Source: Streptomyces sp. SCUT-3
Lineage (GTDB): Bacteria; Actinomycetota; Actinomycetes; Streptomycetales; Streptomycetaceae
Assembly (NCBI RefSeq): GCF_014083985.1
Contig: NZ_CP046907.1
Location: forward strand, 1,654,001-1,718,000
Length of the DNA stretch: 64,000 nt
Reading direction: 5' to 3'
Shown: in pieces, positions 39,864 to 50,082 of the stretch
How the letters are laid out: each line of letters opens with the position of its first letter
Numbering within the stretch: the first letter of the stretch is position 1
Notes under the pieces: model-generated
Database searches by the model: none
Told to the model about the DNA's origin: nothing
Seen by the model: only the letters and a program-made list of their open reading frames with translations
Program-made: the position numbers and the translations under genes

Positions 39864-42800
39864 GTGAGGCGTACGCAGACGGGTCCGGCGCAGCGGCGCG
39901 ACGCGACCCAGGACACCGCAAACGCGGAGTCGGGGCCGCGAGGCAACTTCACCCCGCCCAGCCGCAGAACGCCGCCCGCGACGGCGTCCCCCGCCGCGGC
40001 ACCCGTAACCCCCTCCGAGGAGGCCGTCTCCTCCGGGAGCAGGTTCGCGCTGCGCAACTGGCGTGTGCCCACCCGGCTGATGGCCATTCTCGTCATCCCC
40101 GTGCTGACCGGCCTGGTCTTCGCCGGCCTGCGGATCAACAGCTCCGTGGAGAGCGCGCAGGCGGCCGACGAGGCCGCGCGGGTCGCCATCCTCACCCGCG
40201 ACGCCACCGTGCTGTCCGACGCCCTGCAGAACGAGCGCGACATATCGGCCTACCCGCTCACCCGCGGCGACACCGGCAACGAGCAGATAGCCGCCGCCCG
40301 CAAGGAGACCGACGAGGCGCTGGCCGTGTTCCGCGCCTCCGCGGACGACATCGAGAACAACGCCCGCGTCACCAAGCGCGTCAGGGCGGCAGAGACGGCC
40401 CTCGCCGACCTCGAGGCGCTGCGCAGGGCCGCCTACAAGCCGCAGCTCTCCCCCAACGCCACGCAGCAGGCGTACTCCGAGATGTTCCGCCCGCTGATGA
40501 TGTTCGCCAACGAACTGAACTTCGGCGAGTCCGACATCAACAGCCGCGGCCGCGGCCTCTACACCATCTCGCTCACCAAGGCCTCGGTCTCCACCACCCG
40601 CGCCCTGGTCTCCACCGCCTTCGGCCGCGGGTACCTGCTGTCGGTCGACCCGAGCTCCATCCTGACCGCCGCCAAGACCAAGGAGACGGCCGAGGGCGAG
40701 TTCCGCGCCGCCGCCTCCGACGAGGACCTGGCGCTGTACGACCAGACGGTCTCCGCCAAGGACGGCGCCGCGGCCAAGGAGTACATGGGCCGCGTCATCG
40801 CGACCCCGCCGGGCACCTCCCTGAACAAGGCCGGGCTGAGCTACCGGACCTGGTACCGGCTGGCCTCGGCCGAGATGGACCAGATCGCCGAGGTCGAGTT
40901 CGCCGTCACCGAGGACATCCTCCGGCAGGCCGAGGAGATCCGCTCCGAGGCCCAGCGGGACGCGATCGTCAACGCGGTGGCCGTGCTGCTGGCCCTGGCG
41001 CTCGCCGGCGTCCTCACCGGCCTGGTGGCCCGGTCGATGGTCCAGGGCATGCGCACCCTGCGCACCTCCGCCATGGACATCGCCGAGACCCGCCTGCCCG
41101 AACTGGTCTCCAGCCTGTCCAGGACCGACCCCGGGCAGGTCGACACGACCGTCGGGCCGATCCCCCTCTTCGGCAGGGACGAGATCGGCGAGGTGGCCCG
41201 CGCCTTCGACCAGGTGCACCGCGAGGCGGTCCGCCTGGCCTCCGAGCAGGCGCTGCTGCGGGGCAACGTCAACGCGATCTTCACCAACCTCTCGCGCCGC
41301 AACCAGGGCCTGATCCAGCGCCAGCTGACGCTGATCACCGACCTGGAGAACAACGAGGCCGACCCGGACCAGCTGGAGAACCTGTTCAAGCTGGACCACC
41401 TGGCCACCCGCATGCGCCGCAACGGCGAGAACCTGCTGGTCCTCGCGGGCGAGGAACCCGGACGCCGCTGGACCCAGCCGGTCCCGCTGGTCGACGTGCT
41501 CCGCGCCGCCGCCTCCGAGGTGGAGTCCTACGAGCGCATCGAGCTGTTCGGGATCCCCGAGACCGAGATCCACGGCACCGCCGTGAACGACCTCGTCCAC
41601 CTGCTGGCCGAGCTGCTGGAGAACGCCACCACGTTCTCCTCCCCGCAGACCAAGGTCCGCGTCACCGCCACCCGGCTGCCCGACGGCCGCGTGATGGTCG
41701 AGATCCACGACAAGGGAATCGGCCTGACCGCCGAGGACTTCGCGGACATCAACCACAAGCTGGCCAACCCGCCGACCGTGGACGTGGCGATCGCCAAGCG
41801 CATGGGCCTGTTCGTGGTCGGACGGCTCTCCGCCCGGCACGGCATCCGCGTCCAGCTGCGCCCCTCCGGCGAGCAGGCCGGCACCACCTCGCTGGTCATG
41901 CTCCCCGAGCCGATCACCCACGGCGGCGGCGCCGCCGAGCCCGAGGAGACCGACTTCCAGGTCTCCCGGATCGTCCCCGACAAGCCGGTGGCCCGGCACG
42001 ATGCGGGCATGCGCACCGCCGCCGAACTGGGCTTCGACGACGGCCGCTACGAGCGTCCCGACACCCCGGCCCTCGACCCCGTGGGCCGCTCCGCGCTCCG
42101 CGAGGAGCGGCGGGCCGCGCTCGGCGCCGGCCCCTCGGACCGGCCCGCGGAGCAGCAGTTCCACGACGGGGGCCCCAAGGCCGCGCAGGGCGGCGGCCAG
42201 GACTACGGCCCGCAGCCGCCGTACCTGGACGACGCGTACACGGGCGAGGAGCCCTACACCGAGCAGCCCTACACCGAGCAGGGCTACGACGGCCAGGACT
42301 ACGCCGGGCAGGACTACCAGCGGCAGGACTACCGGGAAGCGGAATACCCCTCCACCGGGTACGGGGAGGACTCCCAGGCCGAACACCCTTATGCTGGTAA
42401 CCAGTTCGAGGCCACGGGGTACGACGGGGCCGCTTACGGCGACGACCGTTACGACCAGCAGCAGTACGGCCGGGACTACGGTTACGCCGGCGGACGGCCC
42501 GACGGGTACCCCGACTCCCCGGAGTACGCCGGCCCGACGGGTGCGGACTCCTACGCTCCGGAAGCGGAATCCGCCCCCGCCCCCTCCTACGGGGTGCAGG
42601 ACGGCGTAAGCTTCGACGGGCCCGGGCCCTCGCCGGACAACTCCCGTTCGTTCGACGACGCGGGCCTCCCGCGCCGTGAACGGCAGTGGGGGCGGTCCGA
42701 GGAGGGGAACGGCCCGGACGGCGGCGCGGCCGAGGACTTCCCCGCCGCCGCGGATCGGCAGAGGCAGAGCGGTGAGGGTGGTGACGAGTGGCTCTCCACC

Positions 42801-43067
42801 AATGACGAGCACTGGCAGCGGGCTTCCCAGGTCCGAGAGCCGCAGGCGGGCGGGGTCACCCCCTCCGGCCTGCCCCGGCGGGTCCCCAAGGCCAACCTGG
42901 TCCCGGGTACCGCACAGCAGACCCAGCAGGGAGGCCCCCAGGTCTCCCGCGCCCCCGAGGAGGTCCGCGGCCGGCTGAGCAACCTGCGCCGCGGTGTCCA
43001 GCAGGGGCGCAATGCAGGAACTGACACCAACGGACAGGGCTTCGGCCCCAACCACCAGGAGCGTTAG
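39864..43067 (+). CDS. cvnA: Conservon 2 sensor kinase (CvnA-type)
   Basis: 1067 aa, GTG start at 39864 with GAGAGG 11 bases upstream, as in conservon 1. Layout: disordered N-terminus to about 65; TM1 about 72-90 (MAILVIPVLTGLVFAGL); helical sensor domain to about 365 unlike that of conservon 1; TM2 about 368-390 (VAVLLALALAGVLTGLVA); HAMP-like region; FKLDHLATRMRRNGENLLVL; HATPase with ELLENATTFSSPQTKVRV (about 583), DKGIGLTAEDF and GLFVVGRLSARHGI. The linker (about 780-960) is Tyr/Asp/Gln-rich (YTEQPYTEQGYDGQDY), very different from the Pro-rich linker of conservon 1, but the tail GLPRRVPKANLVPGTAQQ is the same. Confidence 0.9.
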   Translation: MRRTQTGPAQRRDATQDTANAESGPRGNFTPPSRRTPPATASPAAAPVTPSEEAVSSGSRFALRNWRVPTRLMAILVIPVLTGLVFAGLRINSSVESAQAADEAARVAILTRDATVLSDALQNERDISAYPLTRGDTGNEQIAAARKETDEALAVFRASADDIENNARVTKRVRAAETALADLEALRRAAYKPQLSPNATQQAYSEMFRPLMMFANELNFGESDINSRGRGLYTISLTKASVSTTRALVSTAFGRGYLLSVDPSSILTAAKTKETAEGEFRAAASDEDLALYDQTVSAKDGAAAKEYMGRVIATPPGTSLNKAGLSYRTWYRLASAEMDQIAEVEFAVTEDILRQAEEIRSEAQRDAIVNAVAVLLALALAGVLTGLVARSMVQGMRTLRTSAMDIAETRLPELVSSLSRTDPGQVDTTVGPIPLFGRDEIGEVARAFDQVHREAVRLASEQALLRGNVNAIFTNLSRRNQGLIQRQLTLITDLENNEADPDQLENLFKLDHLATRMRRNGENLLVLAGEEPGRRWTQPVPLVDVLRAAASEVESYERIELFGIPETEIHGTAVNDLVHLLAELLENATTFSSPQTKVRVTATRLPDGRVMVEIHDKGIGLTAEDFADINHKLANPPTVDVAIAKRMGLFVVGRLSARHGIRVQLRPSGEQAGTTSLVMLPEPITHGGGAAEPEETDFQVSRIVPDKPVARHDAGMRTAAELGFDDGRYERPDTPALDPVGRSALREERRAALGAGPSDRPAEQQFHDGGPKAAQGGGQDYGPQPPYLDDAYTGEEPYTEQPYTEQGYDGQDYAGQDYQRQDYREAEYPSTGYGEDSQAEHPYAGNQFEATGYDGAAYGDDRYDQQQYGRDYGYAGGRPDGYPDSPEYAGPTGADSYAPEAESAPAPSYGVQDGVSFDGPGPSPDNSRSFDDAGLPRRERQWGRSEEGNGPDGGAAEDFPAAADRQRQSGEGGDEWLSTNDEHWQRASQVREPQAGGVTPSGLPRRVPKANLVPGTAQQTQQGGPQVSRAPEEVRGRLSNLRRGVQQGRNAGTDTNGQGFGPNHQER

Positions 43068-43490
43068 TTGAGCCCGATGAGCCAGGCGGCACAGAATCTG
43101 AACTGGCTGATCACCAATTTCGTGGACAACACCCCCGGGGTGTCCCACACCGTGGTGGTCTCCGCCGACGGACTACTGCTGGCCATGTCCGAAGGCTTCC
43201 CCCGTGACCGCGCCGACCAGCTGGCCGCGGTGGCCTCCGGCCTGACCTCGCTCACCGCCGGAGCCTCCCGCATCTTCGAGGGCGGCAGCGTCACCCAGAC
43301 CGTCGTCGAGATGGAACGGGGCTTCCTGTTCATCATGTCGGTCTCCGACGGCTCCTCGCTGGCCGTCCTGGCCCACCCGGAGTGCGACATCGGCCTCGTC
43401 GGCTACGAGATGGCCCTGCTCGTCGACCGGGCGGGCACCGTCCTCACCCCCGACCTGCGCGCCGAACTCCAGGGAAGCCTGCTCAACTAG
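43068..43490 (+). CDS. cvnB: Conservon 2 roadblock/LC7 domain protein (CvnB-type)
   Basis: 140 aa, TTG start at 43068 directly after the kinase TAG with GGAG six bases upstream; ATG 43077 is the alternative. It differs from the conservon 1 copy in the last residue only (Asn instead of Gly). The roadblock segments are the same, for example ASRIFEGGSVTQTVVEMERG. A GTPase regulator by family analogy. The 407-bp exact identity with the other copy, including third codon positions, points to recent gene conversion or duplication. Confidence 0.93.
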   Translation: MSPMSQAAQNLNWLITNFVDNTPGVSHTVVVSADGLLLAMSEGFPRDRADQLAAVASGLTSLTAGASRIFEGGSVTQTVVEMERGFLFIMSVSDGSSLAVLAHPECDIGLVGYEMALLVDRAGTVLTPDLRAELQGSLLN

Positions 43491-43603
43491 GCCGTCGGGC
43501 ATGCACGACGCGCCGCCGGACCGTAAGGTGCGGTGGCGCGTCGGGCGCTCCCCGAGTGCCCGACCGACCGGAAGCCGGCCCCAGACAAGCGTGAGGAGGA
43601 ACC

Positions 43604-44212
43604 GTGGCAACGCCCCCAGGCGGATACCCGTACGGCAGTCCCTACGGTGACGAAGGTGACCGGGACCCGTACCGGCAGGGCGCCCACCCGCAGCACGGGC
43701 AGGGCTCCGGGCCGCAGCAGTACGAGCACTTCGGCCTCCCCTCCTCGCCGTCCTCGCCGGCTTCCCCCCACACGGCGCCGCCCGCACCGTCCGCACCGCA
43801 CATACCCCCCGCGGCCCCCGGCCCGGCGGCACCGCCCGCCGCGCACCGAGGACCGGTCACGGGGTCGGACCAGCAGCCGCTGGTGCGCCCCTACGCCATG
43901 ACCGGCGGCCGTACCCGGCCGCGGTACCAGCTCGCCATCGAGGCACTGGTCAGCACCACCGCCGATCCGTCCCGGACGACCGGCCTGCTGCCGGAGCACC
44001 AGCGGATCTGCCACCTGTGCATGGAGATCAAATCGGTAGCCGAGATCTCCGCGCTGCTCTCCATTCCCCTCGGCGTCGCCCGGATCCTCGTCGCCGACCT
44101 GGCCGAGTCCGGCCTGGTCGCCATCCACCAGCCCGGTGGCGACGAGTCCGCCGGCGGTCAGCCTGATGTGACACTGCTCGAAAGGGTGCTCAGTGGACTT
44201 CGCAAGCTCTAG
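43604..44212 (+). CDS. cvnC: Conservon 2 DUF742 protein (CvnC-type)
   Basis: 202 aa, GTG start at 43604 with GAGGAGGAA upstream. The first about 90 residues are a disordered Pro/Ala/Gly/Tyr-rich region (GGYPYGSPYGDEGD, SPSSPASPHTAPPAPSAP) that is much longer than in conservon 1. The DUF742 core from SDQQPLVRPYAMTGG on is the same except for a few substitutions (Ser for Ala in ADLAESGLVAI). Overlaps the GTPase start by 20 bp. The variable N-terminus may give each conservon its own partner contacts (inference). Confidence 0.92.
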   Translation: MATPPGGYPYGSPYGDEGDRDPYRQGAHPQHGQGSGPQQYEHFGLPSSPSSPASPHTAPPAPSAPHIPPAAPGPAAPPAAHRGPVTGSDQQPLVRPYAMTGGRTRPRYQLAIEALVSTTADPSRTTGLLPEHQRICHLCMEIKSVAEISALLSIPLGVARILVADLAESGLVAIHQPGGDESAGGQPDVTLLERVLSGLRKL

Positions 44213-44828
44213 CCAGACTCCGGCCGGTTACGGGCAGGCCGGCAGCCCCGGGTACGACGGGAGTGCTGGTGCTGGGGCCCGCTCCACCACGTCGGCGAAG
44301 ATCGTCGTGGCCGGTGGTTTCGGTGTCGGCAAGACCACCTTCGTGGGAGCCGTCTCCGAGATCAACCCGCTGCGCACCGAGGCCGTCATGACCTCCGCCT
44401 CCGCCGGCATCGACGACCTCACCCACGCCCCGGACAAGACGACCACCACGGTCGCCATGGACTTCGGCCGCATCACCCTCGACGAGGACCTCATCCTCTA
44501 CCTGTTCGGCACCCCCGGACAGGACCGCTTCTGGTTCATGTGGGACGACCTCGTCCGCGGCGCCATCGGCGCCGTCGTCCTCGTCGACACCCGCCGCCTC
44601 GCCGACTGCTTCCCCGCCGTCGACTACTTCGAGAACTCCGGCCTCCCCTTCGTCATCGCCCTCAACGGCTTCGACGGACACCAGCCCTACACCCCCGAAG
44701 AAGTCCGCGACGCCCTCCAGATCGGCCCCGAAGCACCCATCATCACCACCGACGCCCGCCACCGCGCCGACGCCAAGAGCGCACTGATCACCCTCGTCGA
44801 ACACGCGCTGATGGCGCGTCTGCGCTAG
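44193..44828 (+). CDS. cvnD: Conservon 2 Ras-like GTPase (CvnD-type)
   Basis: 211 aa, GTG start at 44193. Same P-loop GGFGVGKTTFV, switch II GTPGQDRFWFMWDD and NGFDGHQPYTPEE as conservon 1; only the first 30 residues (SSQTPAGYGQAGSPGYDGSA) and a few near the C-terminus (ALMARLR) differ. The downstream genes cannot tell the two GTPases apart by their cores, so specificity, if any, must lie in the N-terminus or in co-translation with the upstream kinase. Ends before a 17-bp terminator. Confidence 0.94.
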   Translation: MDFASSSQTPAGYGQAGSPGYDGSAGAGARSTTSAKIVVAGGFGVGKTTFVGAVSEINPLRTEAVMTSASAGIDDLTHAPDKTTTTVAMDFGRITLDEDLILYLFGTPGQDRFWFMWDDLVRGAIGAVVLVDTRRLADCFPAVDYFENSGLPFVIALNGFDGHQPYTPEEVRDALQIGPEAPIITTDARHRADAKSALITLVEHALMARLR

Positions 44829-44879
44829 CCGCCGTGCCCGGCGCGCGGCACGGTCCGCGTACGCCGGGGAGGAACACGG

Positions 44880-44917
44880 GGAAGGGGCCCCGCCGCTGCC
44901 GCGGCGGGGCCCCTTCC
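44880..44917. terminator. Bidirectional terminator after conservon 2
   Basis: Perfect 17-bp stem (44880-44896 with 44901-44917), loop tgcc, between the conservon 2 GTPase and the convergent secreted-protein gene. Confidence 0.88.
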
Positions 44918-44931
44918 GCTGCCGGGCCGGG

Positions 44932-45456
44932 TCAGCAGCCGCCGCAGTTGTAGTACGTCACGTCCCAGTGGTTGCCCTCCTTGGCGTAGATGTTGCCGGA
45001 GCCGGACTTGTACTGGGGGGCGCCGTCGCCGCGCAGCCCGATGTAGGTGAAGTTGCCGGTGATGTAGTTGCTGACGCAGGTGTAGAGCGAGTAGTCCAGC
45101 TTGTAGCCGTTCCAGTGGCTGTAGGTGCCGCTGCTGTGGCCGGTCTCGGTGCCGCCGGTGATGTTCAGTGCGCAGCCGCTGGCGCTCTTGAGGGTCTGGG
45201 CGCCCTGGATGGTGGCCAGGTTGACCTGCTCGAACGAGGTGCAGGTGGAGTTGTAGCGGTCCGAGCACCCGCCGCTGGAGGACCAGGTGATGCCCGAGGA
45301 CTTGAGCATCGAGGTCGCCTGGGAGTGGGTGAGCTTGGTGACCGCGTGGGCCTCGCCGGCCGAGGAGACCAGGCCGACGCCGGGTGCGAAGAGCACCGAC
45401 AGGACGAGGACCAGGGCGGCCAGGACCGGGTGCAGCCGGGTGCGGGCTGATGTCAT
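44932..45456 (-). CDS. Secreted protein with D-Ala-D-Ala peptidase (M15/LAS)-like zinc residues
   Basis: 174 aa from ATG 45456, AGGAGG eight bases upstream. Residues 1-38 are a Sec signal peptide (PVLAALVLVLSVLFAPG, cleavage probably after AHA38). The mature protein is Ser/Gly/Tyr-rich with six cysteines (64, 72, 95, 127, 171, 174), probably disulfides. SHWNGYKLD (113-121) gives H114-x6-D121, and KEGNHWD (159-165) gives E160-x2-H163; these match the H-x6-D and E-x2-H zinc/catalytic pattern of VanX and other M15 peptidases. A role in peptidoglycan cleavage is inference. From memory, related secreted proteins occur in streptomycetes and fungi. Confidence 0.72.
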   Translation of the reverse strand: MTSARTRLHPVLAALVLVLSVLFAPGVGLVSSAGEAHAVTKLTHSQATSMLKSSGITWSSSGGCSDRYNSTCTSFEQVNLATIQGAQTLKSASGCALNITGGTETGHSSGTYSHWNGYKLDYSLYTCVSNYITGNFTYIGLRGDGAPQYKSGSGNIYAKEGNHWDVTYYNCGGC

Positions 45457-45582
45457 GGGGATTCCCTCCTGAGGGAACAGCCTTGCGGGAAAGGGGTGTT
45501 GGCGCCGTCGGCGCGGAGCGTGCGGCACGATGATGCCGCCGTCTACGCGCGTCCGCCAGAGGGCCCTCCCCGCGGACGGCGG

Positions 45583-45629
45583 CGGGCCCCGCCGCGGCCC
45601 CCGGATTCCGGGGGCCGGTGCGGGGCCCG
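45583..45629 (-). terminator. Nested hairpin terminator of cimA
   Basis: Outer 10-bp stem (45583-45592 with 45620-45629) encloses a second perfect 10-bp stem (45595-45604 with 45608-45617, loop att). It lies 22 bp beyond the cimA stop on the minus strand. Confidence 0.7.
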
Positions 45630-45651
45630 TCCCCCGCCGCGGCCGTACCGC

Positions 45652-47247
45652 TCACTCGGTGGGCAGCACCCCTGCGCGGATGAGGCCGTAGGTGTAGGCG
45701 TCCTCCAGGGCCTGCCAGGAGGCGGCGATGACGTTGGGGCCGACGCCGACCGTCGACCACTCGCCGCTGCCGTCGCTGGTCTCCACCAGCACCCGGGTCA
45801 CGGACTCGGTGCCGCGCCTCCCCTCCAGGATGCGGACCTTGTAGTCCACCAGCTCCAGCTTCGCCAGCTGAGGGAAGATCCGCTCCAGGGCCACCCGCAG
45901 CGCCCTGTCCAGGGCGTTGACGGGGCCGTTGCCCTCGCCGGTGGCGACGATCCGCTCCCCCTTGGCCCACAGCTTCACGGTCGCCTCGTTGGCGTGCGAG
46001 CCGTCCGGGCGCTCCTCGACGATGGCGCGCCAGGACTCGGGCCGGAAGAACCGCTCCCGGCGGCCGGCGACCTCGTCGCGCAGCAGCAGCTCGAAGGAGG
46101 CGTCGGCGGCCTCGTAGGTGTAGCCGGCGTTCTCCCGCTCCTTGACCCTGGCGACGACGCGGCCGAGGAGGTCGCGGTCGGACAGGTCGTAGCCGAGCTC
46201 CTTGCCCTTGAGCTCGATCGAGGCGCGGCCGGCCATGTCGGAGACCAGCATCCGCATGCTGTTGCCGACGAGTTCGGGGGTGATGTGCTGGTACAGGTCG
46301 GGGTCGACCTTGATGGCCGAGGCGTGCAGCCCGGCCTTGTGGGCGAAGGCGGAGACGCCCACGTAGGGCTGGTGGGTGGAGGGCGCCAGGTTGACGACCT
46401 CGGCGATCGCGTGGGAGATCCGGGTCATCTCGGCGAGGCAGCCCTCGGGCAGCACCCGCCGGCCGTACTTGAGCTCCAGGGCGGCGACGACGGGGAAGAG
46501 GTTGGCGTTGCCGACGCGCTCGCCGTAGCCGTTGGCCGTGCACTGGACGTGGGTCGCGCCGGCGTCGACGGCGGCCAGGGTGTTGGCCACGGCGCAGCCG
46601 GTGTCGTCCTGGGCGTGGATGCCCAGGCGCGCCCCGGTACGGGCCAGCACCTGCGCCACGACGTCCCGGACCTCTCCGGGGAGCATGCCGCCGTTGGTGT
46701 CGCACAGCACCACCACGTCCGCGCCGGCCCCGTGCGCGGCGCGCACCACGGCCTCGGCGTACTCGGCGTCGGCCCGGTGCCCGTCGAAGAAGTGCTCGCA
46801 GTCCACGAAGACCCGGCGCCCCTGCTCCCGCAGGTGGCGGACGGTGTCGCGGACCATCTCGAGGTTCTCCTCGAGGGTGGTGCGCAGGGCGAGTTCGACG
46901 TGCCGGTCGTGGGACTTGGCGACCAGGGTGATCACCGGGGCCCCGCTGGCCAGGAGCGCCTTGACCTGGGGGTCCTCGGCCGCGGTGGTGCCGGCCCTGC
47001 GGGTGGCGCCGAAGGCCACGAGCTGCGCGTGCTTCAGGTCGAGTTCGGTGGCGGCCCGGGCGAAGAACTCGGTGTCCCGCGGGTTGGCGCCCGGCCAGCC
47101 GCCCTCGATGAAGCCCACGCCGAAGTCGTCCAGGTGGCGGGCGATCGTGAGCTTGTCCGCCACGGTCAGGTTGATGCCCTCGCGCTGTGCGCCGTCGCGC
47201 AGCGTGGTGTCGAAGACATGGAAGCTGTCGTCGGGTGCGGCCGTCAT
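45652..47247 (-). CDS. cimA: (R)-citramalate synthase
   Basis: 531 aa. HMGL-like TIM barrel (about 8-280): FHVFDTTLRDGAQREGINLT (catalytic Arg and metal Asp), VVLCDTNGGMLPGEVRDVV, GIHAQDDTGCAVANTLAAV (metal His), TANGYGERVGNANLFPVVAA. C-terminal LeuA-like dimer/regulatory domain (about 400-525) with DYKVRILEGRRGTESVTRVL. It condenses pyruvate and acetyl-CoA to citramalate, feeding 2-ketobutyrate and isoleucine without threonine. The length and segments distinguish it from 2-isopropylmalate synthase. Its leader has an Ile-Ile leader peptide and a terminator, suggesting attenuation by isoleucyl-tRNA. Confidence 0.95.
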   Translation of the reverse strand: MTAAPDDSFHVFDTTLRDGAQREGINLTVADKLTIARHLDDFGVGFIEGGWPGANPRDTEFFARAATELDLKHAQLVAFGATRRAGTTAAEDPQVKALLASGAPVITLVAKSHDRHVELALRTTLEENLEMVRDTVRHLREQGRRVFVDCEHFFDGHRADAEYAEAVVRAAHGAGADVVVLCDTNGGMLPGEVRDVVAQVLARTGARLGIHAQDDTGCAVANTLAAVDAGATHVQCTANGYGERVGNANLFPVVAALELKYGRRVLPEGCLAEMTRISHAIAEVVNLAPSTHQPYVGVSAFAHKAGLHASAIKVDPDLYQHITPELVGNSMRMLVSDMAGRASIELKGKELGYDLSDRDLLGRVVARVKERENAGYTYEAADASFELLLRDEVAGRRERFFRPESWRAIVEERPDGSHANEATVKLWAKGERIVATGEGNGPVNALDRALRVALERIFPQLAKLELVDYKVRILEGRRGTESVTRVLVETSDGSGEWSTVGVGPNVIAASWQALEDAYTYGLIRAGVLPTE

Positions 47248-47366
47248 CTCGTTGAGCTCCTGTCGGGTGCGCGGTCTTCGGAATGACCGACTCCACTTGC
47301 CTCCTATGATCCCCCCGCGCGACTCCCGCCCGGGCGGTCGGCCCTGTCGTGGAGCTCCGGCAAACG

Positions 47367-47393
47367 AAAAAACCTCTCGCGGGTGCGAGAGGT
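47367..47393 (-). terminator. Transcription attenuator in the cimA leader
   Basis: On the minus strand acctctcgc-accc-gcgagaggt, 9-bp stem, followed by six T residues (47372-47367): the only classic U-tract terminator in the window besides the one before ilvB. It lies 119 bp before the cimA start, downstream of the leader peptide. Confidence 0.85.
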
Positions 47394-47425
47394 CTGCGCG
47401 CGGGTCGGGGGCTTCGTGTCCGCTT

Positions 47426-47444
47426 CCGCACCGGTCGGGTGCGG
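47426..47444 (-). promoter_or_regulatory. Upstream hairpin of the cimA attenuator
   Basis: ccgcacc/ggtgcgg, 7-bp stem, loop of five, between the leader peptide stop and the terminator. It could be the pause or anti-terminator element. Confidence 0.5.
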
Positions 47445-47451
47445 GGAGCGG

Positions 47452-47487
47452 TCACTGCGGACCGGCGCGCCTGCTGCCGATAATCAT
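47452..47487 (-). CDS. cimA leader peptide MIIGSRRAGPQ
   Basis: Eleven codons from ATG 47487 to TGA 47452-47454. Two isoleucine codons (ATT ATC) follow the start. No strong ribosome site is seen. It stops eight bases before the first hairpin of the cimA leader, the geometry expected for ribosome-dependent attenuation. Confidence 0.6.
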   Translation of the reverse strand: MIIGSRRAGPQ

Positions 47488-47691
47488 GGCGAACGAGGAC
47501 ACGAGGGGCAGTCTGCCACAGAGGCCGCCGGCCGCCGCACGGCGTCTCAGGATGCGAACGGCGGTCCCGCGGGCCGGATGCACGCGTCCGCGCGTCCGGC
47601 CCGCGCCGCTCCTCGACCGCCCGGCCGGCCCGGCCCGCCCGGCCCGCGGGTACGGGCGCGGGCTCGGACCGGGCAGGGCCGGGGCCGGGGC

Positions 47692-48813
47692 TCAGCCCAG
47701 GGGGTGCATCCAGTTGTGGGTGTCGGCGGCGACGCCGGTCTGGAGCTCGAGCAGGGCGCGGCGCAGCCGCATCGTGACCTCGCCCGGCTCGCCGTCGGCC
47801 ACGGTCCAGTCGGCGCTGGTGGACTTCACCGACCCGACCGGGGTGATGACCGCGGCGGTGCCGCAGGCGAAGACCTCGGTCAGGGTGCCGTCGGCGCAGG
47901 CGTTGCGCCACTCCTCGACCGAGATCCGCTCCTCGCCGACCCGGTGGCCGAGGTCGGCGGCGATCTCCAGCAGGGACTGGCGGGTGATGCCGGGGAGCAG
48001 CGTCCCGGTCAGGGCGGGGGTGACCACGCGGGCGTCCCGGCCCTCCCCGTACACGAAGTACAGGTTCATGCCGCCCATCTCCTCGATCCAGCGGCGCTCG
48101 GCGGCGTCCAGCCAGACGACCTGGTCGCAGCCGTGCTCGGCGGCCTGCGCCTGGGCGACCAGGGAGGCGGCGTAGTTGCCGGCGCACTTGGCCGCACCGG
48201 TGCCGCCGGGCGCGGCGCGCACGTACTCCTCGGAGAGCCAGACCGAGACCGGCTTGACCCCGCCGGGGAAGTAGGCGCCGGCCGGGGAGGCGATGACCAT
48301 GAAGAGGTACTCGTTCGCGGGCTTGACGCCCAGGCCGACCTCGGTGGCGAACATGAAGGGGCGGATGTACAGGCTCGCCTCCCCGCCGTGCTCGGGGACC
48401 CAGCCGCTGTCCTGCCGGACCAGGGCGTCGATGGCGGCGACGAAGGTCTCCTCCGGCAGTTCGGGCATGGCCAGGCGGCGGGCGGAGGCCCGGAAGCGCT
48501 CGGCGTTGGCGAACGGGCGGAAGGTGGCGACGGTGCCGTCGGGCTGCCGGTAGGCCTTGAGGCCCTCGAAGATGCCCTGGCCGTAGTGGAGCATCATGTT
48601 GGCCGGGTCGATCTGCAGCGGCGCGTAGGGGACGAGCTGGGCGTCGTGCCAGCCGCGGCCCTCGGTCCACCGGACGGTGACCATGTTGTCGGTGAAGCGG
48701 CGGCCGAACCCGGGGTTGCTCAGGATCCTGCGGCGCTCCGCGTCCGGCAGGGGGTGCGCGGTGGGCTTCAGCTCGATCGGGAGCGGGGCGGGGCTGCTTG
48801 CGGTCGTGGTCAT
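47692..48813 (-). CDS. ilvE: Branched-chain amino acid aminotransferase
   Basis: 373 aa, ATG at 48813, GAAGGA about eight bases upstream. PLP fold-type [44 protein letters not shown]-type Arg region [17 protein letters not shown], the PLP lysine in [16 protein letters not shown] (Lys about 212), [13 protein letters not shown] and [16 protein letters not shown], and [11 protein letters not shown]. It transfers amino groups to the keto acids of Ile, Leu and Val. leuB is 231 bp upstream on the same strand. An 8-aa upstream reading frame overlaps its ribosome site. Confidence 0.97.
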
Positions 48814-48826
48814 CTGTGCATGTCCT

Positions 48827-48853
48827 TCACCATGTGGTCGTGGTGGACCGCAT
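48827..48853 (-). CDS. Possible upstream [11 protein letters not shown] before ilvE
   Basis: ATG 48853 to TGA 48827-48829, eight codons with four successive threonine codons; the TGA is inside the ilvE Shine-Dalgarno (ggTGAAGGAC). Could couple ilvE translation to threonine supply, or be chance. Confidence 0.3.
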
Positions 48854-48897
48854 CCGCTTCCGCGATGGTCGGACGTCCTATCAACCCGGCGTACGCA

Positions 48898-48933
48898 ACG
48901 GCCCGACCGCGATTGTCACCGGGGTCGGGCCGT
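48898..48933 (-). terminator. Hairpin between leuB and ilvE
   Basis: Perfect 11-bp stem (48898-48908 with 48923-48933), 14-nt loop, about 110 bp past the leuB stop; no T tract. Confidence 0.5.
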
Positions 48934-49044
48934 ACGGGAAGGACGCGGCCCGATGTCGATGGTCGCACCCCGCCGCGCGTGAGCACAGTCGGCCCGCGCC
49001 ACCGCTCCCCGCGGGGCGGGGGCGGCGACGGGCGGGCGGGTGCG

Positions 49045-50082
49045 TCAGGCGGATACGCGGGCGGCGATCGCGTCGCCGATCTCGTGGGTGGCGCGCGGGC
49101 CGGTGCGCTCGGCGAGGTCCGCGGTGACCGCGGCCTCGATCCTGGCCGCCTCCTCGGCGTACCCGAGGTGCTGCAGGAGCATGGCGACGGAGAGCACCGC
49201 GGCGGTCGGGTCCGCCTTGGCCTGCCCGGCGATGTCCGGGGCGGAGCCGTGGACCGGCTCGAACATCGAGGGGAACGCGCCGGAGGGGTTGATGTTGCCC
49301 GAGGCGGCCAGGCCGATGCCGCCGGTGACCGCGGCGGCGAGGTCGGTGAGGATGTCGCCGAAGAGGTTGTCGGTGACGATGACGTCGAACCGCTCGGGCT
49401 GGGTGACGAAGAAGATGGTCGCCGCGTCGACGTGCAGGTAGTCGGTGGTGACCTCGGGGTACTCCCGGCCGACCCGGTCGAAGATGTTCTTCCACAGGTG
49501 TCCGGCGTGCACCAGCACGTTGTTCTTGTGGACCAGCGTCAGCTTCCTGCGCGGCCGGGCCTGGGCGCGGGCGTAGGCGTCGCGCACCACGCGCTCGATG
49601 CCGAAGGCGGTGTTGAGGCTGACCTCGGTGGCGACCTCGTGCTCGGTGCCGGTGCGCAGCGAGCCGCCGTTGCCGACGTAGGGGCCCTCGGTGCCCTCGC
49701 GGACCACCACGAAGTCGATCGCCGGGTCGCCGGCCAGCGGCGAGGCGGTGTTCGGGTAGAGCTTGGCGGGGCGCAGGTTGACGTGGTGGTCGAAGGCGAA
49801 GCGGAGCTTGAGCAGCAGGCCGCGCTCGAGGACGCCGGAGGGCACCGACGGGTCGCCGACCGCGCCGAGCAGGATCGCGTCGTGCTCCTTGAGCTGCTCC
49901 AGCTCGGCGTCGGGGAGGGTCTCGCCGGTGGCGTGCCAGCGCCGGGCGCCGAGGTCGTACTCCTTGGTCTCCAGCTTCACGCCCTCGGGGAGGACGGCGG
50001 CCAGGACCTTGAGTCCTTCGGCCACGACTTCCTGACCGATGCCGTCACCGGGGATCACTGCGAGGCGGATGCTGCTAGACAT
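49045..50082 (-). CDS. leuB: 3-isopropylmalate dehydrogenase
   Basis: 345 aa, ATG at 50082. Beta-decarboxylating dehydrogenase motifs: [18 protein letters not shown] (about 6-23), [49 protein letters not shown] (catalytic Lys), [20 protein letters not shown] (metal Asp) and [20 protein letters not shown] (NAD site). It is the actinobacterial short form. It oxidises 3-isopropylmalate to 2-ketoisocaproate. The start codon follows AAGGAG by twelve bases. It diverges from the phosphatase gene. Confidence 0.97.

Follow-up and report, generated by a model that had tools for sequence, protein, structure and literature searches.

A predicted exported protein of Streptomyces sp. SCUT-3 is probably a LAS-type zinc metallopeptidase of an unnamed family

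The gene analysed here lies on the minus strand of the window (the whole 64,000-nucleotide stretch of Streptomyces sp. SCUT-3 DNA). Its product, referred to below as the window protein, is probably an exported, disulfide-bonded zinc metallopeptidase of the LAS superfamily (clan MD), from a family without a name in the libraries searched, acting as a peptidoglycan endopeptidase on stem or cross-bridge peptides. Because the protein bears the apparent zinc site of wall peptidases, and because in relatives the domain is combined with wall-binding, lysozyme and phage-tail modules, cutting of bacterial cell walls is the most likely reading of its sequence.

The gene product and its conserved residues

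The ORF encodes 174 amino acids from an ATG codon; its GC content by codon position is 0.50/0.54/0.97, in a window of 74% GC. The family gene is present as a single copy in its own genome. Inspected by eye, the presumptive signal peptide (Table 1) showed neither a lipobox nor a twin-arginine motif. The original prediction had placed H114-x6-D121 and E160-x2-H163, with no strand given, in a small protein of six Cys and about 136 mature residues. The residue numbers proved exact on the minus-strand ORF, and both the number of cysteines (positions 64, 72, 95, 127, 171 and 174) and the mature length, with signal cleavage judged by eye, were borne out.

Within one protein of 174 residues, the combination of H-x6-D and E-x2-H alone carries little weight against chance. 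The motif goes beyond chance because the four residues are invariant in all 18 rows of alignment A1, made of diverse relatives with 40-85% identity to the window protein. Thus, the search for homologues lacking these residues, suggested as a check at the outset, left standing the proposal that a compact secreted protein has a metallopeptidase site resembling that of M15/LAS enzymes. The other invariant positions of A1 are T100, T103, E104, H107, S113, G117, Y118, K119, W164, D165, C95 and C127. In alignment A3, also of 18 rows, two close rows of A1 were swapped for two phage members; here T73, T100, E104, H107, S113, H114, G117, Y118, K119, D121 and H163 are invariant, and E160 is nearly so, an Asp being aligned in the phage protein L101. 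Both phage proteins retain the first His, the Asp and the second His of the presumptive zinc set. The pattern looked for in LAS (clan MD) proteins, H-x(3-6)-D with a distant second His, was found in 18/18 rows of A1 and in the two phage rows of A3.

The comparison was extended to 98 distinct domain sequences, with the window protein included and L087 (one of 7/296 matches; E 6.7e-4, with stops inside) dropped as unrelated. A pattern search detected the signature from the TGG motif to the zinc Asp in 97 of the 98; the remaining sequence, L018, which lies outside A1, keeps the His and the Asp and has TGGAE for TGGTE, that is, Ala at the position of T103. The gap between Glu and the last His is 2 residues in 90 sequences, 4 in two and 6 in one by pattern, and 7 in five by eye. 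E-x2-H is therefore the form of most members, including the window protein, within a variable spacing. As to the cysteines, C64 and C72 are lost as a pair in three rows of A1, and C171 and C174 are found in 9/18. This pattern suggests three disulfides, C64-C72, C95-C127 and C171-C174.

Table 1. Positions of the gene, of its predicted functional residues and of adjacent elements in the window.
Feature	Position	Strand	Basis or remark
CDS, 174-aa secreted protein (predicted)	44932..45456	-	stop codon 44932-44934; best 80 of 440 related loci
Ribosome-binding site AGGAGG	45465..45470	-	8 bases ahead of ATG
Signal peptide, residues 1-38 (...EAHA/V)	45343..45456	-	cleavage site read by eye
Mature domain, 136 aa, predicted LAS-type fold	44935..45342	-	AlphaFold2 model and VIA-align
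Signature T100-G-G-T-E104-x2-H107-x5-S113-H114-x2-G117-Y-K119-x-D121	45094..45159	-	alignments A1 and A3; pattern search
H114 codon, predicted zinc ligand 1	45115..45117	-	invariant, 18/18 in A1, also A3
D121 codon, predicted zinc ligand 2	45094..45096	-	invariant, 18/18 in A1, also A3
H163 codon, predicted zinc ligand 3	44968..44970	-	invariant, 18/18 in A1, also A3
E160 codon, predicted catalytic base	44977..44979	-	18/18 in A1; Asp aligned in phage L101
E104 codon	45145..45147	-	weakly aligned by hhalign with the SGFR Arg of PF08291
K119 codon, two before zinc Asp	45100..45102	-	invariant, 18/18 in A1, also A3
C95 codon, likely disulfide with C127	45172..45174	-	18/18 in A1; missing in two phage members
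C127 codon, likely disulfide with C95	45076..45078	-	18/18 in A1; missing in two phage members
Conserved 42-bp upstream box (CCCTCTGGCGGACGCGCGTAGA...), probable gene-specific promoter/operator	45522..45563	-	upstream-region comparison
17-bp perfect hairpin, probable bidirectional terminator	44880..44917		between convergent genes; z -4.2 and -3.8

Relatives, domain fusions and gene context

The species-genome collection contained at least 440 related stretches among at least 596 pattern matches listed; the best 80 of the 440 are 68-83% identical and come from records titled Streptomyces (79) and Actinacidiphila (1). A profile search located the family in 62 of 150 genomes of the Streptomycetaceae and in 8 of 396 genomes of the phylum, the source genome being counted in both. 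Relatives were also detected in 35 of 72,556 plasmid records (Streptomyces 33, Deinococcus 1, Nonomuraea 1), where most are annotated as hypothetical or lack annotation. Neither the window protein nor the domain of the viral relative L100 matched any of 50,697 phage records; IMG/VR provided two contigs with relatives, recovered again as L119-L121. With no hit among the phage records and two viral contigs only, a phage origin of the window gene was rejected.

Pfam analysis of four fused relatives detected PG_binding_1 in every one: L088, L089 and L091 carry PG_binding_1, and L090 carries GH25 and two PG_binding_1 domains. By annotation, a further GH25 lysozyme or peptidoglycan-binding protein is encoded in the neighbourhood of these four genes and of that of L095. 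In Deinococcus sp. QL22 the family gene follows an annotated amidase gene on the same strand with a gap of 81 bp, and the viral members reside in proteins of 928 and 1216 aa with tape-measure PHROG matches, after a Phage_lysozyme2 or SLT domain. These muralytic neighbours and fusions from plasmids, Deinococcus and phages point to peptidoglycan as the substrate, and so strengthen the guess of a peptidoglycan hydrolase that accompanied the original prediction.

Some of these records contain further arrangements. On plasmids, a second peptidoglycan-binding protein is encoded after the fused peptidase gene (L089 3459-4310, L091 3446-4555, L095 3430-4542); in the L089 copy Pfam finds nothing but PG_binding domains, and the remainder may be another unnamed domain. 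The tape-measure-like phage proteins L100 (2874-5660) and L101 (2865-6515) pair lysozyme or SLT with the peptidase domain of this family, which comes second.

The box upstream of the gene was analysed in 84 regions (L001-L086 minus two with no detected start codon). At least 24 of the 42 consensus bases were matched in 71/84 regions as opposed to 18/1680 base shuffles, with a median best match of 35 over all 84, statistics that are inflated by the kinship of the loci and that use a consensus derived from the same loci. An exact copy of the core ACGCGCGTAGA occurs in 65/84 regions; counted from the core, the box lies 57-194 bases ahead of the start codon, with a median of 90. Information content amounts to 1.5-1.9 bits at the core and to 0.1-0.6 bits in the seven bases from -8 to -2; the fall-off downstream is less clean. 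With as many as 3 mismatches allowed over 20 bases, the source genome has one site, while a reversed pattern used as control matched 3 times by chance; a regulon sharing the box was accordingly rejected. A second pattern, which misses the copy of the source genome, matched at four sites across 21 related genomes, against 0 for its control; among these sites, L160 precedes a family member, and L161 and L162 have nothing obviously related nearby. Since the box stays with the gene despite differing flanks and is single in its own genome, it is probably the gene's own promoter or operator.

Scans for sigma-70-type promoters and for T-run terminators returned none. The hairpin between the convergent genes is GC-rich and has no T-run. 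Rfam gave no relevant riboswitch match over positions 40000-50000, and one weak miRNA match below the gathering score. A link to anti-phage defence was discarded, there being no PADLOC match. The adjacent segment at 39864-44828 (+), where a large sensor-kinase-like protein is encoded along with small genes, presumably resembles a Streptomyces conservon; no kinase-like flanking gene was reported at the best 80 loci, some of which have short flanks.

A peptidoglycan endopeptidase might be deployed as a bacteriocin-like weapon against neighbouring bacteria, a proposal that concerns the use of the enzyme and is compatible with the activity favoured here. The protein is small, apparently secreted and devoid of a wall-anchoring domain, its gene has a box of its own, and the family is found in only 62 of the 150 family genomes. 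Against this, no partner or immunity gene came to light, the four flanking genes tested each occurring at no more than 11 of the best 80 loci (citramalate-synthase-like 11, GTPase-like 8 and the next gene 5, with some flanks short and names assigned by reading). A conserved neighbourhood was therefore rejected. The bacteriocin-like idea, raised in the original prediction, thus gained no direct support, and we regard a role in competition as doubtful.

Family searches and predicted fold

The window protein gave no match in Pfam, PF01427, PF02557, PF01085 and PF08291 included, and only sub-threshold matches in NCBIfam and PHROGs. Scanned singly, 18 diverse members showed no consistent Pfam or NCBIfam family, and PF01085 was not among their matches; phrog_9664 (function unknown) overlaps the end of the L100 domain with an E-value of 0.02. 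Sequence and profile searches of the PDB returned no peptidase and no LAS protein, and a literature search weighted towards open-access papers brought up none recognised as describing the window protein. By these searches, the domain is without a named family in Pfam, NCBIfam and PHROGs. The source genome encodes separate PF08291 and PF01427 (VanX-family) proteins (G000:C1:1967622-1967966 and 450347-451012), and a PF01085 search of it was negative. A match of the precursor to the secreted protease inhibitors of NF009716 (E 0.0095 over residues 2-123) can safely be dismissed, as its score of 16.3 bits falls far below the cut-off of 197, the mature domain is left unmatched, and none of the five families reported for the 18 A1 members is an inhibitor.

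Profiles of known LAS families were built from small sets taken from related genomes: VanY (6/6 loci), PF08291 (9/10 loci) and two VanX sets, one of 5/20 loci chosen with a relaxed motif pattern, a stricter version having matched none, the other of the 7 best full-length loci. Alignment A3 scored 28.8 against VanY, a value reached by 0/100 column-shuffled decoys (maximum 23.2), at a match probability of only 32%. The block SHxNGYKxD...ExxHWD was aligned onto the VanY motif, and the alignment stops short of the region of the substrate Arg/Lys. The score against PF08291 was 19.5, borderline, as 1/100 decoys reached it. Those against VanX were 10.9 for the 5-sequence set and 13.0 for the 7-locus set, attained by 67/100 and 30/100 decoys, although in the latter the H-x6-D motifs do pair.

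These scores bear on whether the window protein could itself be an enzyme of the VanX or VanY type, a D,D- or L,D-carboxypeptidase or dipeptidase that trims stem peptides or free D-Ala-D-Ala. The affinity to VanY speaks for such an enzyme, as does the motif: H-x6-D with E-x2-H is the arrangement given for LdcB (PMC4087270), and E-x2-H that given for VanX (PMC3927764). However, the Arg or Lys named for the product carboxylate of LdcB (PMC4087270) has no clear counterpart, E104 falling on the Arg of PF08291 in a weak alignment. The VanX profiles stay at the level of decoys. Furthermore, the window protein has a signal peptide, and VanX is cytoplasmic. We consider a VanX- or VanY-type activity unlikely. 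Membership in VanX itself was rejected on the decoy-level profiles and the lack of a Pfam match, the latter being also the outcome of the comparison with VanX and PF02557 proposed initially. E-x2-H is found in LdcB too, and the VanX profiles do no better than decoys, so that the label "VanX-type" was too specific; the Arg of LdcB and VldE appears to be missing as well. The original prediction is thus partly supported, being right at the level of the superfamily and too narrow at that of VanX.

The structure prediction suggested at the outset placed the window protein among LAS proteins. The second of two AlphaFold2 models, from a 38-row alignment, has a pLDDT of 81.9 and a pTM of 0.80, with residues 24-33 and 134-136 below pLDDT 50. 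In it, two helices precede a strand running up to the TGG motif; D121, E160 and H163 are carried by strands E81-85, E118-122 and E125-129 (mature numbering). When VIA-align was applied to 992 aligned Foldseek candidates, LAS proteins took places 1-40 of the 50 shown, with Z from 6.8 to 4.0: 28 hedgehogs (to 6.8), VldE (5.6), 1lbu (5.4), MepA (5.1), LdcB (4.8), LysB4 (4.1) and Ply500 (4.0). Even the top Z of 6.8 falls short of 8, the level at which the score would suffice by itself, and the assignment rests on the clean break in the ranking rather than on Z. Since LAS proteins fill the first 40 of 50 rows and the next, a histidine-kinase domain, falls to 3.5, we assign a LAS-type fold to the window protein with moderate confidence. 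For the first model (pLDDT 79.4, weak near the motif), the top 20 rows were LAS proteins, but unrelated kinases appeared from Z 4.3. Foldseek found no match to the PDB at E<=0.001 with either model; the best row for the second (E 0.14) is not a LAS protein. The viral models gave weak Foldseek matches only, M15 among them.

The hedgehog LAS domain, whose catalytic status is debated, calls attention to a different outcome, namely that the window protein is a catalytically dead zinc- or ligand-binding LAS domain serving in wall binding or signalling after secretion. Hedgehog N-domains make up the highest Z rows and the Arg appears to be missing, a loss that could also mean an inactive enzyme. Yet E160 is conserved along with the three ligands, and in plasmid and phage proteins the domain is fused beside other muralytic domains. 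A dead domain therefore appears quite unlikely, and an active endopeptidase is the reading favoured here.

Proposed activity and comparison with known LAS systems

In the mechanism we propose, one zinc would be held by H114, D121 and H163; E160 would activate the zinc-bound water, which would then attack a peptide bond of peptidoglycan. E104 would stand in place of the Arg on the substrate side, together with the invariant K119 two residues before the zinc Asp. At this latter position the PF08291 and VanY sets have Ala and the VanX set has Thr. The exchange of Arg for Glu at E104 appears from an alignment that is weak. Because E104 seems to replace the Arg used by LdcB and VldE and because K119 sits near the zinc Asp, cleavage within stem or cross-bridge peptides is most likely, ahead of a D,D-/L,D-carboxypeptidase or a VanX dipeptidase activity.

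Tentatively, these features may define an unrecognised LAS family, spread across Streptomycetaceae, Deinococcus, Nonomuraea, plasmid muramidases and phage tape-measure proteins, in which the change from Arg to Glu, with a compensating Lys, has brought about a new substrate preference. If so, cleavage could for example be of the endopeptidase type and guided by the free amino group of a diamino acid or of a bridge peptide, a preference for which we know of no precedent in the LAS superfamily. Naming the family would give an annotation to these proteins and to some tail and plasmid lysins. It would also offer a small enzybiotic scaffold, probably stabilised by disulfides, and a test of how LAS enzymes choose their substrate once the usual Arg is gone.

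Compared with VanX (M15D, PF01427), the window protein shares E-x2-H, as well as H-x6-D as seen in the VanX sequences collected; it differs in its predicted export, in the decoy-level profiles, in having no Pfam match and in that no Arg was found at the expected place. LdcB/VanY (M15B, PF02557) likewise has H-x6-D and E-x2-H, and gave the highest of the three family profile scores (28.8) with a fold Z of 4.6-4.8. In SpLdcB the residues named are H153, D160, H207 and E204, with the product bonded by Arg120 (Arg or Lys on the product carboxylate; PMC4087270). The window protein, in contrast, has no Pfam match and no Arg or Lys found at the expected place, has six Cys and is reduced to a minimal domain of 136 residues.

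The L-Ala-D-Glu endopeptidase VldE (9flh, 9flj, 9flk, 9flm, 9fln) also has a small LAS domain with H-x6-D (fold Z 5.0-5.6). Its motif residues are given as H301 and D308, and the transition state is modelled as held by R294 (PMC11667670), for which a counterpart was not found in the window protein. For the hedgehog N-domain and BacHh (PF01085), which provide the top Z rows (6.8 over 101-106 residues), the zinc set is described as H141/D148/H183 with E177 (PMC6027127), and a stacked His, H181, two before the last ligand, and six calcium-binding acidic residues are named (PMC8052667). The window protein differs by the lack of the stacked His and of a PF01085 match.

The Zn DD-peptidase of Streptomyces albus G (1lbu, M15A, PF08291) resembles the window protein in fold (Z 5.4 over 104 residues). 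Its second motif is H-x-H, whereas the window protein has E-x2-H with Gly two before H163 and does not match PF08291. The S. albus enzyme combines PG_binding_1 with the peptidase, and this is the layout that the plasmid relatives of the window protein share.
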